This document shows, one piece after another, positions 1 to 4,123 of a stretch of DNA of 64,000 bases; position 1 is the stretch's first letter, and every line of letters begins with the position of its first letter. The notes under the pieces were generated by a model. The model was not told the origin of the DNA and did not search any database. It was given only the letters and a program-made list of their open reading frames with translations. The DNA is taken from positions 1 to 64,000 of the forward strand of contig VGVZ01000006.1 in the NCBI GenBank assembly GCA_016873805.1, read 5' to 3'. This DNA comes from Ignavibacteria bacterium (lineage in GTDB: Bacteria; Bacteroidota; Ignavibacteria; UBA10030). The position numbers and the translations under genes were made by a program.

Positions 1-159
1 GTCGGGGAAGAGCCAGAGGAATGTCTTCGGCGGTGCGTTCTCGATCGGTTTGTTCGGGTAGTGCTCTGTGCAACCCGATGAACCAGCGAGGATCAAGAAG
101 ACCGCCAGGCCAATCCGGATCAAACCGGTCAGTTCCGGTTCCATCCACGATCGCTTCAT
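1..159 (-). CDS. Surface lipoprotein, N-terminal fragment (runs off window)
   Basis: The first 53 codons of a minus-strand gene are visible; the rest lies beyond base 1. ATG is at 159-157. The translation has a hydrophobic stretch ending in a lipobox (LAGSSGC), so an outer-envelope lipoprotein is likely. The residues after the cysteine (NAPPKTFLWLFPD) resemble the start of large Ignavibacteria-type secreted proteins of unknown role. It would naturally have been the next gene after the T9SS protein ending at 1901, but the 1.7-kb insert at 201-1903 lies only about 40 bp upstream of its start codon and probably separates it from its original promoter or operon. The function is unknown; the call rests on the signal sequence alone. 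Confidence 0.6.
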   Translation of the reverse strand, partial: MKRSWMEPELTGLIRIGLAVFLILAGSSGCTEHYPNKPIENAPPKTFLWLFPD

Positions 160-200
160 TGTGTTTCCAATCGCTCTCACCACGCTCCGTTACTTTAGGT

Positions 201-218
201 TAGTATCAAATGATACCA
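201..218 (+). repeat. Left terminal inverted repeat
   Basis: TAGTATCAAATGATACCA is the exact inverse of 1886-1903. Its core GTATCA-AA-TGATAC is itself a dyad, so it could also be an operator or a recombinase site. Similarity continues weakly inwards (GTGGG at 228-232 and a T-rich stretch to 240 match the right end after a 6-nt gap). Confidence 0.85.
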
Positions 219-264
219 AGGCAGATTGTGGGTATTTTGTCATCACCAATGCCGGAGGTATCAT

Positions 265-1038
265 ATGCTCGAGCACCAACTTTCTTCCCGGCTTCAGTCG
301 AAGTCTGTCAAGCAGTCGATCGTTTCGAGTATCGCTAGGGATTTCAACCTCACACCGATTCTCGCTGAAGCCTACTTCACTCAGATCAGTGATTACTTTC
401 TGCGCCATGCCGAGGTGAACCTTAACGCCGGCCAGATGCACTACCTCGCCGTCGATGAGAACGAGCCCGCCGGCAAGCCGCTTGCACTCTGCAAGAAGGT
501 CTCTGTCAAGCTCACGTTGCATACGCCAGCAGAAGACCTGGCGGTCTACAAAAAGTCAGGGCTCCGAGGTCTTCGCCATCACAAGATCATCCGTATCACC
601 AATGAAGCCATCGATCAGGGCGGCATCCTCTCCTCTGAGGACATTGCCTTCATCCTCACTACCAGTGTCGTCACCATCAAGCGTGACATCAGCCAGATGC
701 GACGCAAAGGCATCATCCTGCCTTCCCGCGGCTGGCGTCACGAGATGGGGCGTGGTCAAACCCACAAAACCCAGATCCTGGAGCTCTATCTCTCCGGCTA
801 TCAGTTCTCTGACATCGAGCGCAGGACCCATCACTCCGAGACTGCCATCAAGCGTTACATCCAGGACTTCGCCCGCGTCGTCCTCTTGCACAAGAAAGGC
901 TTCTCGCTGGACCAGATCCGTATCTCCACCGGCTTCTCACACCGTTTGGCGGGAGAATATCTGAAGCTCTTCAAGCAACATCGCTCAAGTTCACAGCTCA
1001 AGCGCATCCTTCAGAACCCCAAAAAAAGGGGGCGCTGA
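265..1038 (+). CDS. DUF1670-like multi-helix-turn-helix protein 1
   Basis: 257 residues. The start ATG at 265 is chosen because GGAGG lies at 254-258, six bases before it; an upstream ATG at 226 has no such site. I recognise the family as DUF1670-like; its function is not established. Three helix-turn-helix-like segments can be seen: about 112-150 (ILSSEDIAFIL...TIKRDI), about 165-200 (GQTHKTQ...TAIKRYIQDF, resembling a recombinase HTH) and about 212-236. The C-tail is basic (PKKRGR). No catalytic acid triad, zinc ribbon or membrane segment is evident. It is paralogous to the next gene, 5 bp downstream. A DNA-binding role, perhaps at the dyad-shaped element ends, is inferred. A partial copy of the repeat (GGTATCAT, 257-264) overlaps its ribosome-binding site, which suggests autoregulation. 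Confidence 0.75.
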   Translation: MLEHQLSSRLQSKSVKQSIVSSIARDFNLTPILAEAYFTQISDYFLRHAEVNLNAGQMHYLAVDENEPAGKPLALCKKVSVKLTLHTPAEDLAVYKKSGLRGLRHHKIIRITNEAIDQGGILSSEDIAFILTTSVVTIKRDISQMRRKGIILPSRGWRHEMGRGQTHKTQILELYLSGYQFSDIERRTHHSETAIKRYIQDFARVVLLHKKGFSLDQIRISTGFSHRLAGEYLKLFKQHRSSSQLKRILQNPKKRGR

Positions 1039-1043
1039 ACACT

Positions 1044-1850
1044 ATGATTGCAAAGAACTTACGCTTCCTGCCCCGAGATACCAGAGACTTCTCTCCGGCT
1101 GCCATCGCCCTTCGAGAGTATTGTCGCATCAAGGGCAAATCCTTGAAACACATCCTCCTGGATCGTTTCCTCAACCACTACGGCTATGACAAGGGCGCGG
1201 TCACCGCTCAAGCCATCATCGATGACATGCTTTCACTCATCGAACACTATTACCGTTACCACGACAACTCCTTCCTGAAGCAAGGCCAGATGGTCTGGCA
1301 CGCTGTCCCCGTCGATGAATATCCGAAGAAGGGCAAGTCCATGGCCCAGACCAAACTGAAGCCCGTCGTCCTGGATATCATTACCGACAGCGATATCGAA
1401 GACATGAAAACACCCATCCACCACCGGGAACTTCGGCTCAAAAAGATCGAGCGCTGGACTACCCAAACCTATGATCAGGGCGCCTTACTCTCCCAACTCG
1501 ATCTCGCCGTCTTGCTCAACACTTCCTCCATGACCGCCGGTGAGTATGTCCGGGAATATCAGAACCTCTACCACCGTTCCTTACCAACCCGCGGCAATAT
1601 CCAACTCATCGGCAGTGGACAAACACACAAAAAACAAATCATTGCTCTCCATCTCAAAGGCTACCTCGTCCCAACCATCTGTCAAAGAACCAATCACTCC
1701 AAAGAAGCTGTCGAACGCTACATCCGTGACTATGAATCTGTCAAACTCTTATCCACCAAGTTCGATGATGTCGATGTCATCTCTCGCATCATTCGCCTCA
1801 CCCCATCAGTCGTCAAGCAGTACCTTGACCTGGTCCCGCTTGACTCCTGA
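1044..1850 (+). CDS. DUF1670-like multi-helix-turn-helix protein 2
   Basis: 268 residues, starting 5 bp after the stop of the first DUF1670-like gene, so the two are surely co-transcribed. It aligns by eye with its neighbour over most of its length. Shared landmarks are a GQM motif in the N-terminal half, DQGALLSQLDLAVLL against DQGGILSSEDIAFIL, and GQTHKKQ...EAVERYIRDYE against GQTHKTQ...TAIKRYIQDFA. The N-terminal third is more divergent, as expected for subunits with different roles in a hetero-complex. There is no enzyme signature and no signal peptide. Its stop codon is 35 bp before the right inverted repeat. The function is unknown; DNA binding is inferred from the HTH-like segments. 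Confidence 0.75.
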   Translation: MIAKNLRFLPRDTRDFSPAAIALREYCRIKGKSLKHILLDRFLNHYGYDKGAVTAQAIIDDMLSLIEHYYRYHDNSFLKQGQMVWHAVPVDEYPKKGKSMAQTKLKPVVLDIITDSDIEDMKTPIHHRELRLKKIERWTTQTYDQGALLSQLDLAVLLNTSSMTAGEYVREYQNLYHRSLPTRGNIQLIGSGQTHKKQIIALHLKGYLVPTICQRTNHSKEAVERYIRDYESVKLLSTKFDDVDVISRIIRLTPSVVKQYLDLVPLDS

Positions 1851-1885
1851 GTGGATGAACACTACTTTACAAACCCGCCCACACC

Positions 1886-1903
1886 TGGTATCATTTGATA
1901 CTA
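1886..1903 (-). repeat. Right terminal inverted repeat
   Basis: TGGTATCATTTGATACTA is the exact inverse of 201-218. Its last three bases (CTA, 1901-1903) form the TAG stop codon of the minus-strand gene that ends here. Confidence 0.85.
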
Positions 1904-4123
1904 TTTAATAAGGACCATTCTCTTTGTGAACGAAACCTCTCCGCTCACGAGCCGGTAGAAGTAGACGCCGCTTGGCAACAGTCTCGCATCAAACCGGACT
2001 GAGTACCGCCCTTGACTCTTTTGCTCATCGAGCAGAAGGCGCACTTCCTGCCCGAGCATGTTATACACCGATAATCTCACGTTTGCAGACTGGGGAACAT
2101 CAAATTGGATAGTTGTCAGCGGATTAAATGGATTTGGGTAGTTCTGTGCGAGATCGAATGACCCGGGCATAGTCTCGGCATGCCTCGTCATGACGCTTGT
2201 GGTCAGCATTCCGAAGTCAGAATCCTTGCGTGGTACCAATTTGTATCGCCCGTAGCTGAAGTAGATGATACCTTGTACATAGGTAAAGCTGTCTCCCTGA
2301 TTCAGAATTGTCTTCCCTCTACTTGTGTCAGTCACGATATTAGAGAAACGATTCTTTCCATCTTGACGAACAATTATTGGGCCTGTTCCATCGTCCAATT
2401 CATATTCAGTTTGATCAGAGAAAGTGGGCCATACATTCGTAACTCGGACGTTATCAAACCGAACTAGCATGCCTTCCCACTTTTCTGCGATTGGTGCACC
2501 ATTCGCTACAGCGGGACCGAAATCACCTGTCTTCAGCGAAACCGGAGATGGAATGGCTAAGCTCCTTGCGTGGATCTTGATCGAAGTAGCGGTGTCAGGG
2601 ATCGATATTCTTGTAACGTCGCTTGCCTCTTGAATTGTACCACTCACGCTAATGCTATCACCTCTTGTGAGGTGTGCCAATCGTGCCTCATTTGCACTGA
2701 AGATCCAGATTCCACTCCAGGGAGAATTCCCATCCTGCATATACCAAGCTGAAGTTCCTCGAACGGTGAAAGGATAAGTGCCTACATCACTACTGTCTGC
2801 CGTTACGATGCCACTTAGAGTGACAAGTGATCCAAGATATGGAGTTCTACCATGCGGGTATTCTGTGTACTGGATATCGCTTATTCTTACATTCCGATCG
2901 AGCACAACGTATGAGAAGAAACCTTGAGAGGTATCAGAGGCCCCAAAAGAACTTGAATTGGCAAGTAGCGTTTCATTACCATCGGTGTCTACTGCTTTGA
3001 AGAAATATTTGACACGAGTATTTGCTGCAAATTTTGGAAACACTACCCTAAAAGTATCCGGGGCGACAGAGCGCAGCGTATCAAGAATCCATACGCCATT
3101 GTTGATGCTGCGAAGAGAGACGACAAATCTCAGTGGAGCTCCTCCGGGTTGACCATACGAACGGACGGACAACGTCACGGAATCAACTGGACTTACGACA
3201 ACGGGCTCTCGTCGGTGAGAACCAATCCATGGTTTGACCTTGCCAACTGTTATGTCTCCTGGAAAAATTGGAGTGATGAGATAACCCCTCGATTCCCATG
3301 CAGAATTCGCCATAATGACGCCCCTGATCGTGTCGATGGTCGAGTTTGGGGCGGGAGCAACATATGTCGAAAGTGGATCTCGATGACCCCGTGTTGTAAA
3401 CCACCTCGAACCATCATGCGTTGTGATCATGTTGTTATCGGCATCTATTAGGTTTAAGGTGTTTGGTACCCCACTGCTACTGTTGGTCGTCGAAACATCG
3501 AGATTTAGCAGTTCTACATATGCACCTTCGTAGAGTTCTCCAGAGGAATACTTGATTACATAACCCGAGCCGTGAACGCCAGAATGGAAGTCTCCGATCC
3601 TCAACCTGATCGGCTTCGGTGCGTTTCGGGTCTCGATTACTGAGATATTGATGCCGGGTATAGGAACGAATTGTGTTCCGCTAGACATATCGTTGCTGGG
3701 AAACTCAGTTACATATCCCCGCAATCGAATAACATCTCCGGCTTCAATGTTCAAGAAACCCTCGTTCTTTAGTGCCGAAGTGTCTCCAGAACTTGCTCTC
3801 GCAAACAATCCGGCGAAATTGACCAGATTAGTAGCGGTATCTTTCAAGACCAGTGTCCACCCCGCGCCTGTCCAAGTAATCACCTTTGGCGGAACAAGGC
3901 ACTGTGCCACTACTTCAACCGTTTCGCGCGGCGTAATTGCGAATCTCGATGCCTGAAGACTCCATCGCGAGTTCTGCGTTCGCTGAAGCTGCTCTGCCAA
4001 CTTCAAGGAATCCGGGTGCGCATATTGAATATCATAGATTGTCACGGTCCGATATTTACCCTGCGCATTGGCTGATATACTCAGAGCAGTGGTGATTATG
4101 ACGGATAGGATAGATCGATTCAT
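1901..4123 (-). CDS. Secreted T9SS cargo protein with C-terminal sorting domain
   Basis: 740 residues. A signal peptide ends near SANAQ (about residue 21). The last ~85 residues form a type A T9SS sorting domain: QNYPNPFNPLTTIQFDV, then YNMLGQEV, LPSGVYFYRL and the terminal KRMVLIK. The body holds at least two similar beta-rich modules of the OB-fold or DUF5689-like kind (near residues 85-170 and 405-500, each reading like 'GdxIrLrGxVtE'). This predicts an outer-surface or exported protein, perhaps nucleic-acid- or carbohydrate-binding; the substrate is unknown. A good ribosome site (CAGGAGGAGCT) precedes ATG 4123. The gene is clearly more AT-rich (about 42-43% GC in two hand-counted lines) than its neighbours. 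Its stop codon overlaps the right end of the DUF1670 insert. Confidence 0.8.
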   Translation of the reverse strand: MNRSILSVIITTALSISANAQGKYRTVTIYDIQYAHPDSLKLAEQLQRTQNSRWSLQASRFAITPRETVEVVAQCLVPPKVITWTGAGWTLVLKDTATNLVNFAGLFARASSGDTSALKNEGFLNIEAGDVIRLRGYVTEFPSNDMSSGTQFVPIPGINISVIETRNAPKPIRLRIGDFHSGVHGSGYVIKYSSGELYEGAYVELLNLDVSTTNSSSGVPNTLNLIDADNNMITTHDGSRWFTTRGHRDPLSTYVAPAPNSTIDTIRGVIMANSAWESRGYLITPIFPGDITVGKVKPWIGSHRREPVVVSPVDSVTLSVRSYGQPGGAPLRFVVSLRSINNGVWILDTLRSVAPDTFRVVFPKFAANTRVKYFFKAVDTDGNETLLANSSSFGASDTSQGFFSYVVLDRNVRISDIQYTEYPHGRTPYLGSLVTLSGIVTADSSDVGTYPFTVRGTSAWYMQDGNSPWSGIWIFSANEARLAHLTRGDSISVSGTIQEASDVTRISIPDTATSIKIHARSLAIPSPVSLKTGDFGPAVANGAPIAEKWEGMLVRFDNVRVTNVWPTFSDQTEYELDDGTGPIIVRQDGKNRFSNIVTDTSRGKTILNQGDSFTYVQGIIYFSYGRYKLVPRKDSDFGMLTTSVMTRHAETMPGSFDLAQNYPNPFNPLTTIQFDVPQSANVRLSVYNMLGQEVRLLLDEQKSQGRYSVRFDARLLPSGVYFYRLVSGEVSFTKRMVLIK

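Follow-up and report, generated by a model that had tools for sequence, protein, structure and literature searches.

A DUF1670 gene pair between inverted repeats

The window, by which we mean the whole stretch analysed (64,000 nucleotides, positions 1 to 64,000 of contig VGVZ01000006.1 of an Ignavibacteria bacterium), carries near its start two tandem DUF1670 genes that lie between inverted repeats and adjoin a T9SS sorting-domain gene. Is this pair a mobile element, and could its own products move it? A sequence-only reading had proposed a mobile unit at 201–1903, with two paralogous multi-HTH genes as its sole content, exact 18-bp inverted ends and a TA target duplication. We consider it likely that the locus is one copy of an undescribed site-specific IS-like family, for which the DUF1670 tandem pair most likely provides the transposition machinery.

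The 18-bp inverted repeats proved to be exact at 201–218 and 1886–1903 of the window, and the proposed dyad GTATCA-AA-TGATAC is present at both ends. As an exact 14-mer, this dyad is confined in the own genome to the two ends of the element. The tandem DUF1670 pair is accompanied by no other gene, and no transposase domain was found in either protein with Pfam and NCBIfam, as had been claimed. The proposed limits and duplication were wrong. Because an empty site in contig C51 of the same genome and the distal ends of other copies show it so, the element is placed at 196–1904 (1709 bp), between copies of a TT duplication at 194–195 and 1905–1906. The TA dinucleotides are element sequence, and TA as the target duplication is thereby ruled out. 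The parts of the locus are as follows.

1..183, minus strand: downstream host gene, lipoprotein-like, split from the T9SS gene by the element (C51 comparison)
190..195, minus strand: original T9SS gene end, now displaced (codon AAG, stop TAA), identical to the uninterrupted gene end in C51
194–195: one copy of the 2-bp target duplication, TT (AA on the gene strand), within the displaced AAG
196..1904, plus strand: mobile element, 1709 bp, bounded by the 2-bp duplication TT/TT and by the empty site in C51
196..202, unstranded: gene-distal end linker TAGGTTA (TAACCTA on the T9SS gene strand), a family-specific linker of 6–8 bp in all copies
203..216, unstranded: distal terminal dyad GTATCA-AA-TGATAC, centre 14 bp from the insertion point
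265..1038, plus strand: DUF1670 protein 1, 257 aa, predicted multi-HTH (PF07900 match, alignment, AlphaFold2 model)
1044..1850, plus strand: DUF1670 protein 2, 268 aa, paralogue of protein 1 (PF07900 match, alignment, hhalign, model)
1888..1901, unstranded: gene-proximal terminal dyad GTATCA-TT-TGATAC, centre 10 bp from the insertion point
1901..1904, minus strand: element-supplied third codon base A (1904) and new T9SS-gene stop TAG (1903–1901), read from the sequence
1905..1906, unstranded: second copy of the 2-bp target duplication, TT (AA on the gene strand)
1901..4123, minus strand: target gene, a T9SS type A sorting-domain protein ending KRMVLIK (TIGR04183 match; C51 paralogue without the element)

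Empty sites and the rebuilt gene end

The C51 paralogue of the target gene ends GTCCTCATT-AAG-TAA-CGGAGCGTGG and continues with the sequence that lies beyond the element in the window. Positions 1–195 of the window match C51 2551–2357, directly after the T9SS paralogue (195 bp, 99.5% identity), and the T9SS-side flank matches C51 over 346 bp at 87.6% identity. The occupied site in the window reads AA/A TAG (slash, insertion point), compared with AAG TAA at the empty site. An insertion in genome G319 (L090) gives the same picture: the orthologous genes in G318 and G321 are without the element and end in AAG-TGA, the very codon and stop that are found displaced in G319. The empty sites counted are C51, L140 and L141. 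The start of the window's contig is itself a near-identical repeat of G000:C51 (L188) around the T9SS paralogue, and this repeat probably broke the assembly at the window start.

All 34 of 34 distal junctions have a displaced last-codon position and then an in-frame stop just outside the element, for which the chance is 3/64 at each junction, with one linker length per group picked by eye. The linker between the dyad and the displaced codon is 6–8 bp long and family-specific. AAA, AAG, CGA, CGT and CGG are among the displaced codons; the displaced end of one copy (L040) is TAG TAG, apparently an AAG altered by mutation. In the proximal copy, the third base is always A and the stop is TAG or TAA. 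The same first two codon bases stand on both sides in 20 of the 22 two-sided insertions, and genes ending in Arg carry CG on both sides (3/3 two-sided insertions). Since the first two codon bases are shared and the third is A proximally, comparison of the junctions establishes that 2 bp are duplicated, namely the leading bases of the last codon (AA for Lys, CG for Arg), and that the element gives the third base and the stop. A 5-bp AAATA duplication is ruled out, because the third base of the displaced codons varies (AAG, CGT, CGG) and only 2 bp can therefore be duplicated.

The junctions also bear on homing, in which DUF1670 would cut empty T9SS gene ends and repair via the shared sorting-domain sequence would copy the element in. 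T9SS genes are homologous upstream of the site, and there are many empty sites per genome. However, the flanks downstream are not homologous to one another, the duplication is a precise 2 bp and no junction has lost the original stop, so that we regard homing as very unlikely.

The last codon of T9SS sorting-domain genes is the target

Among the 31 proximal junctions, 28 fall in the last codon of a gene that has a T9SS sorting domain and a K/R-M-x-L-type end, and 27 of these 28 T9SS-type targets exceed the curated TIGR04183 cut-off. The target gene in the window scores 47.9 bits (cut-off 23; 1e-12) and ends KRMVLIK; ends elsewhere read KKMILLK, KKMVLLK, RKLVLLK and similar. The gene at L051 ends KKMLFLK yet scores under the cut-off. 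In total, about 60 T9SS sorting-domain genes are present in the own genome. Three insertions (L037, L049 and L050) lie outside T9SS genes. At the site of L037 the DNA is nevertheless similar to the target (AGAAAAATGTTTATTGTAAA), and this suggests that the DNA itself, and not the function of the gene, is recognised.

Conserved synteny of the pair between T9SS genes in related genomes had been named beforehand as an observation that would speak against mobility. DUF1670 pairs do adjoin T9SS genes across relatives, but this reflects the targeting of unrelated T9SS gene ends and not one conserved locus. A non-mobile regulatory pair with flanking operators, held by synteny near T9SS genes, is next to impossible in our judgement. 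Palindromes and HTH proteins do resemble autoregulation and T9SS genes are frequent neighbours, but the empty sites refute this explanation and rule out conserved synteny of a non-mobile pair. Different T9SS genes are used in each genome, and identical multi-copy ends, fragments and relics likewise contradict a fixed pair.

Copies, nested insertions and relics

The claim of a mobile element is upheld by the dyad ends at pairs elsewhere and by the empty sites. Spread to multiple copies is evident from genome G320, where at least six distal and four proximal ends are identical over 123–139 nt and each stands at a different T9SS gene end. At L096 the insertions are nested: a B-variant element lies within a gene end already rebuilt by an A-type element, and the codon and stop that the B-variant displaced are the A-type end AAATAGTATCA. 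Two shortened copies retain both ends (L043, 480 bp; L041, 824 bp).

Further remnants were observed at several loci. An A-type remnant follows the B-variant insertion at 3540–3600 of L096 (G539:C4). At about 1929 of L187 (G000:C19:47928), the stop of another T9SS gene is immediately followed by an A-type end relic, and no DUF1670 gene remains there. L105 (G573:C1 822000–838000) has three DUF1670 remnants spaced by about 3.9 kb, each directly after a T9SS gene ending K-MMLLK. A solo distal end, GGACAAATGTCCTAATTGT, with no adjoining DUF1670 gene was found at about 3040 of L221 (G518:C111) and is possibly a relic.

Distribution of relatives and evolution of the ends

DUF1670 is patchily distributed, with occurrences in 9 of 296 genomes of the phylum, 34 of 391 genomes of the class and 4 of 129 genomes of another order. 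Many copies end at contig ends, like repeated elements in draft assemblies; intact elements are about 1.7–2.1 kb long. In Bacteroidota-type genomes, most of the other intact DUF1670 pairs are flanked on each side by matching dyads, whereas shuffled flanks gave matches in 7 of 720 trials; an exact-match detector caught part of the dyad pairs, and the remainder were read by eye from the flanks. Of the properties for which the sequence-only reading proposed to test pairs elsewhere, matching ends (in most intact pairs) and empty sites were found, and a TA duplication was not, the duplicated bases being AA or CG. DUF1670 is the sole gene content in all T9SS-targeting groups.

The ends differ between groups. 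Those of group A, to which the window element belongs, are GTATCA-NN-TGATAC; group C has GGTCA/GTATCA hybrids; group B has GGACA-NN-TGTCC with the variants GTGCC, CGACA and GGAAGA; and group D has GCCATATGGC. When the end types are placed on trees of either protein, 7 changes are needed, against a minimum of 6 and about 16 if shuffled, and the ends and the proteins therefore evolve together. The distance from the proximal dyad centre to the insertion point is 10 bp in groups A, B and C, and the distal distance is 14 bp (A and C) or 13 bp (B). In A and C the proximal end follows gene 2, whereas in B it precedes gene 1, so the gene pair of B is reversed relative to its ends.

Group D comprises L038, L039 and L117 (order of G171) and L094 (G357), which have dyad ends at sites other than T9SS genes. 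The flanks of L039, once joined, make a perfect hairpin, ATTCTGCCCCT-GC-AGGGGCAGAAT, which suggests insertion of the D group into terminator-like palindromes. DUF1670 is also present in the archaeon Methanosarcina acetivorans, used as a control genome. No relatives were found in viral contigs, phages or plasmids, and carriage by phages or plasmids was rejected on this ground.

The DUF1670 proteins as candidate transposition enzymes

Both proteins of the window belong by a wide margin to PF07900 (DUF1670), a family without assigned function (204.7 and 196.8 bits against a cut-off of 25; 1.5e-60 and 4e-58). They are paralogues (hhalign E 4e-39), as had been read from the sequence. AlphaFold2 models (protein 1, pLDDT 81 and pTM 0.45; protein 2, pLDDT 80.5 and pTM 0.54) predict helical proteins with one beta hairpin and several HTH units, in line with the earlier description of the genes as multi-HTH.

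A search for known catalytic domains gave negative results. No DDE family was matched in Pfam or NCBIfam to E 1, apart from chance-level matches to IS1/IS21 HTH domains (E 0.05–0.12, far under the cut-off), and no serine recombinase or HUH catalytic domain was matched in Pfam, NCBIfam or PDB sequences. The earlier suggestion to look for a nuclease fold in predicted structures yielded none: no nuclease or recombinase fold was recognised with Pfam, NCBIfam, PHROGs, PADLOC, PDB sequences or Foldseek on these models of low pTM. What these resources returned was HTH-like, unnamed or nothing; fold and sequence matches in the PDB were weak and of HTH type, and those to viral models were weak, HTH-like and unnamed. 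This negative result counts against the favoured explanation, as do the three insertions outside T9SS genes and the different target of the D group.

These results are compatible with a passenger unit, in which DUF1670 would only bind the ends for regulation or targeting and an enzyme of the host or of another mobile element would act in trans; both the lack of a recognised catalytic fold and the helical models with HTH units and one beta hairpin fit this explanation. We judge it quite unlikely. Movement in trans is the less likely course because the own genome is without another element with these ends, a dyad search there giving this element, one relic, one unrelated site and no autonomous partner, and because the pair is constant in all groups. 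These groups are divergent and come from many genera, and their ends change with the protein clade.

Could DUF1670 instead be a very divergent tyrosine-recombinase-like enzyme, acting through R110, H167, H190 and Y198 or Y232 with a circular intermediate and a 2-bp core? The only residues invariant across both paralogues in 18 divergent sequences are G56, R110, Q118, H167, I171, H190, Y198 and Y232, that is, R, Q, H, H, Y and Y besides one Gly and one Ile. We take the order of these residues to resemble the R-H-H-Y of tyrosine recombinases, but it could be a feature of the HTH units. No Pfam integrase match was obtained, hhalign gave a probability of at most 0.2% against seven E. coli tyrosine recombinases, and Foldseek found no match. 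The duplication of CG at 3/3 two-sided Arg sites is also a better fit to a staggered cut than to exchange at a fixed core. We therefore hold such an enzyme to be unlikely.

On balance, we lean slightly towards the DUF1670 pair being a transposase or recombinase of a previously unknown catalytic class, specialised for T9SS-tail DNA and rebuilding the final codon and stop. The searches run found no relation of the pair to DDE, DEDD, HUH, serine or tyrosine enzymes.

Comparison with known systems

The element has the general features of an insertion sequence, namely matching inverted ends (the 18-bp repeats here, dyads elsewhere), a target-site duplication (2 bp, 20/22) and empty sites. The TnsD (attTn7) pathway of Tn7 recognises conserved coding DNA at a gene 3' end and inserts downstream of glmS. 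The DUF1670 element would likewise read coding DNA at the end of a gene, and both insert where the gene keeps working, but Tn7 has multi-gene machinery, a longer duplication and an insertion site downstream of glmS; the DUF1670 element, with two genes only, enters within the last codon, rebuilds codon and stop and duplicates 2 bp. Integrases that enter the 3' ends of tRNA genes are tyrosine recombinases with longer identical cores. Their elements likewise bring a replacement for the displaced gene part, but the DUF1670 element duplicates only 2 bp and no integrase domain was found in its proteins.

IS630/Tc1-mariner elements duplicate TA and encode a DDE transposase. They share small size, inverted ends and a 2-bp duplication with the DUF1670 element, which in contrast duplicates AA or CG and gave no match to a DDE family. 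IS110/IS1111 elements are also small and have specific target sites, and their targeting uses a guide RNA (PMC11187229). They feature a DEDD transposase and a sizeable noncoding region that holds this RNA, whereas the window element gave no match to the family or to Rfam and has noncoding ends of about 50–60 bp. Target–element complementarity in DUF1670 elements is not above background; guide-RNA targeting is ruled out on this ground and by the lack of an Rfam match.

We call the family new because the searches run returned no known family for its proteins or for its last-codon targeting; an ISfinder entry under another name is possible. Our literature search found no mention of DUF1670 and no report of such elements in work on T9SS, insertion sequences or palindromic ends, in agreement with the earlier remark that no report of DUF1670 pairs as transposons was known.

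Proposed mechanism and implications

Sequence comparison establishes the mobility of the element, its target, the duplication and the repair of the gene end; the pathway of insertion is most likely the following. The two paralogues would bind the dyad at each end, with centres 10 bp (proximal) and 13–14 bp (distal) from the cut. The complex would pair the ends and recognise the conserved DNA for the extreme C-terminus of the T9SS sorting domain (K-K-M-x-L-x-K). We infer that DUF1670 itself would then make a cut, staggered by 2 bp, behind the second base of the last codon of the target (following AA in Lys codons and CG in Arg codons), and that joining and repair would yield the 2-bp duplication. 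The end of the element would give A+TAG or A+TAA, restoring the last residue and the stop, and the original wobble base and stop would be shifted to the far side of the element.

With two genes in about 1.7 kb and a defined target some 20 bp long, the system could serve as an insertion tool. The family also points to a strategy for avoiding harm to its host: a repeated secretion signal is targeted (about 60 sites in the own genome) and the gene end is rebuilt, so that many insertions per genome would be tolerable. The finding suggests a role for a domain of unknown function, as a class of DNA-moving enzyme that is invisible to current annotation.
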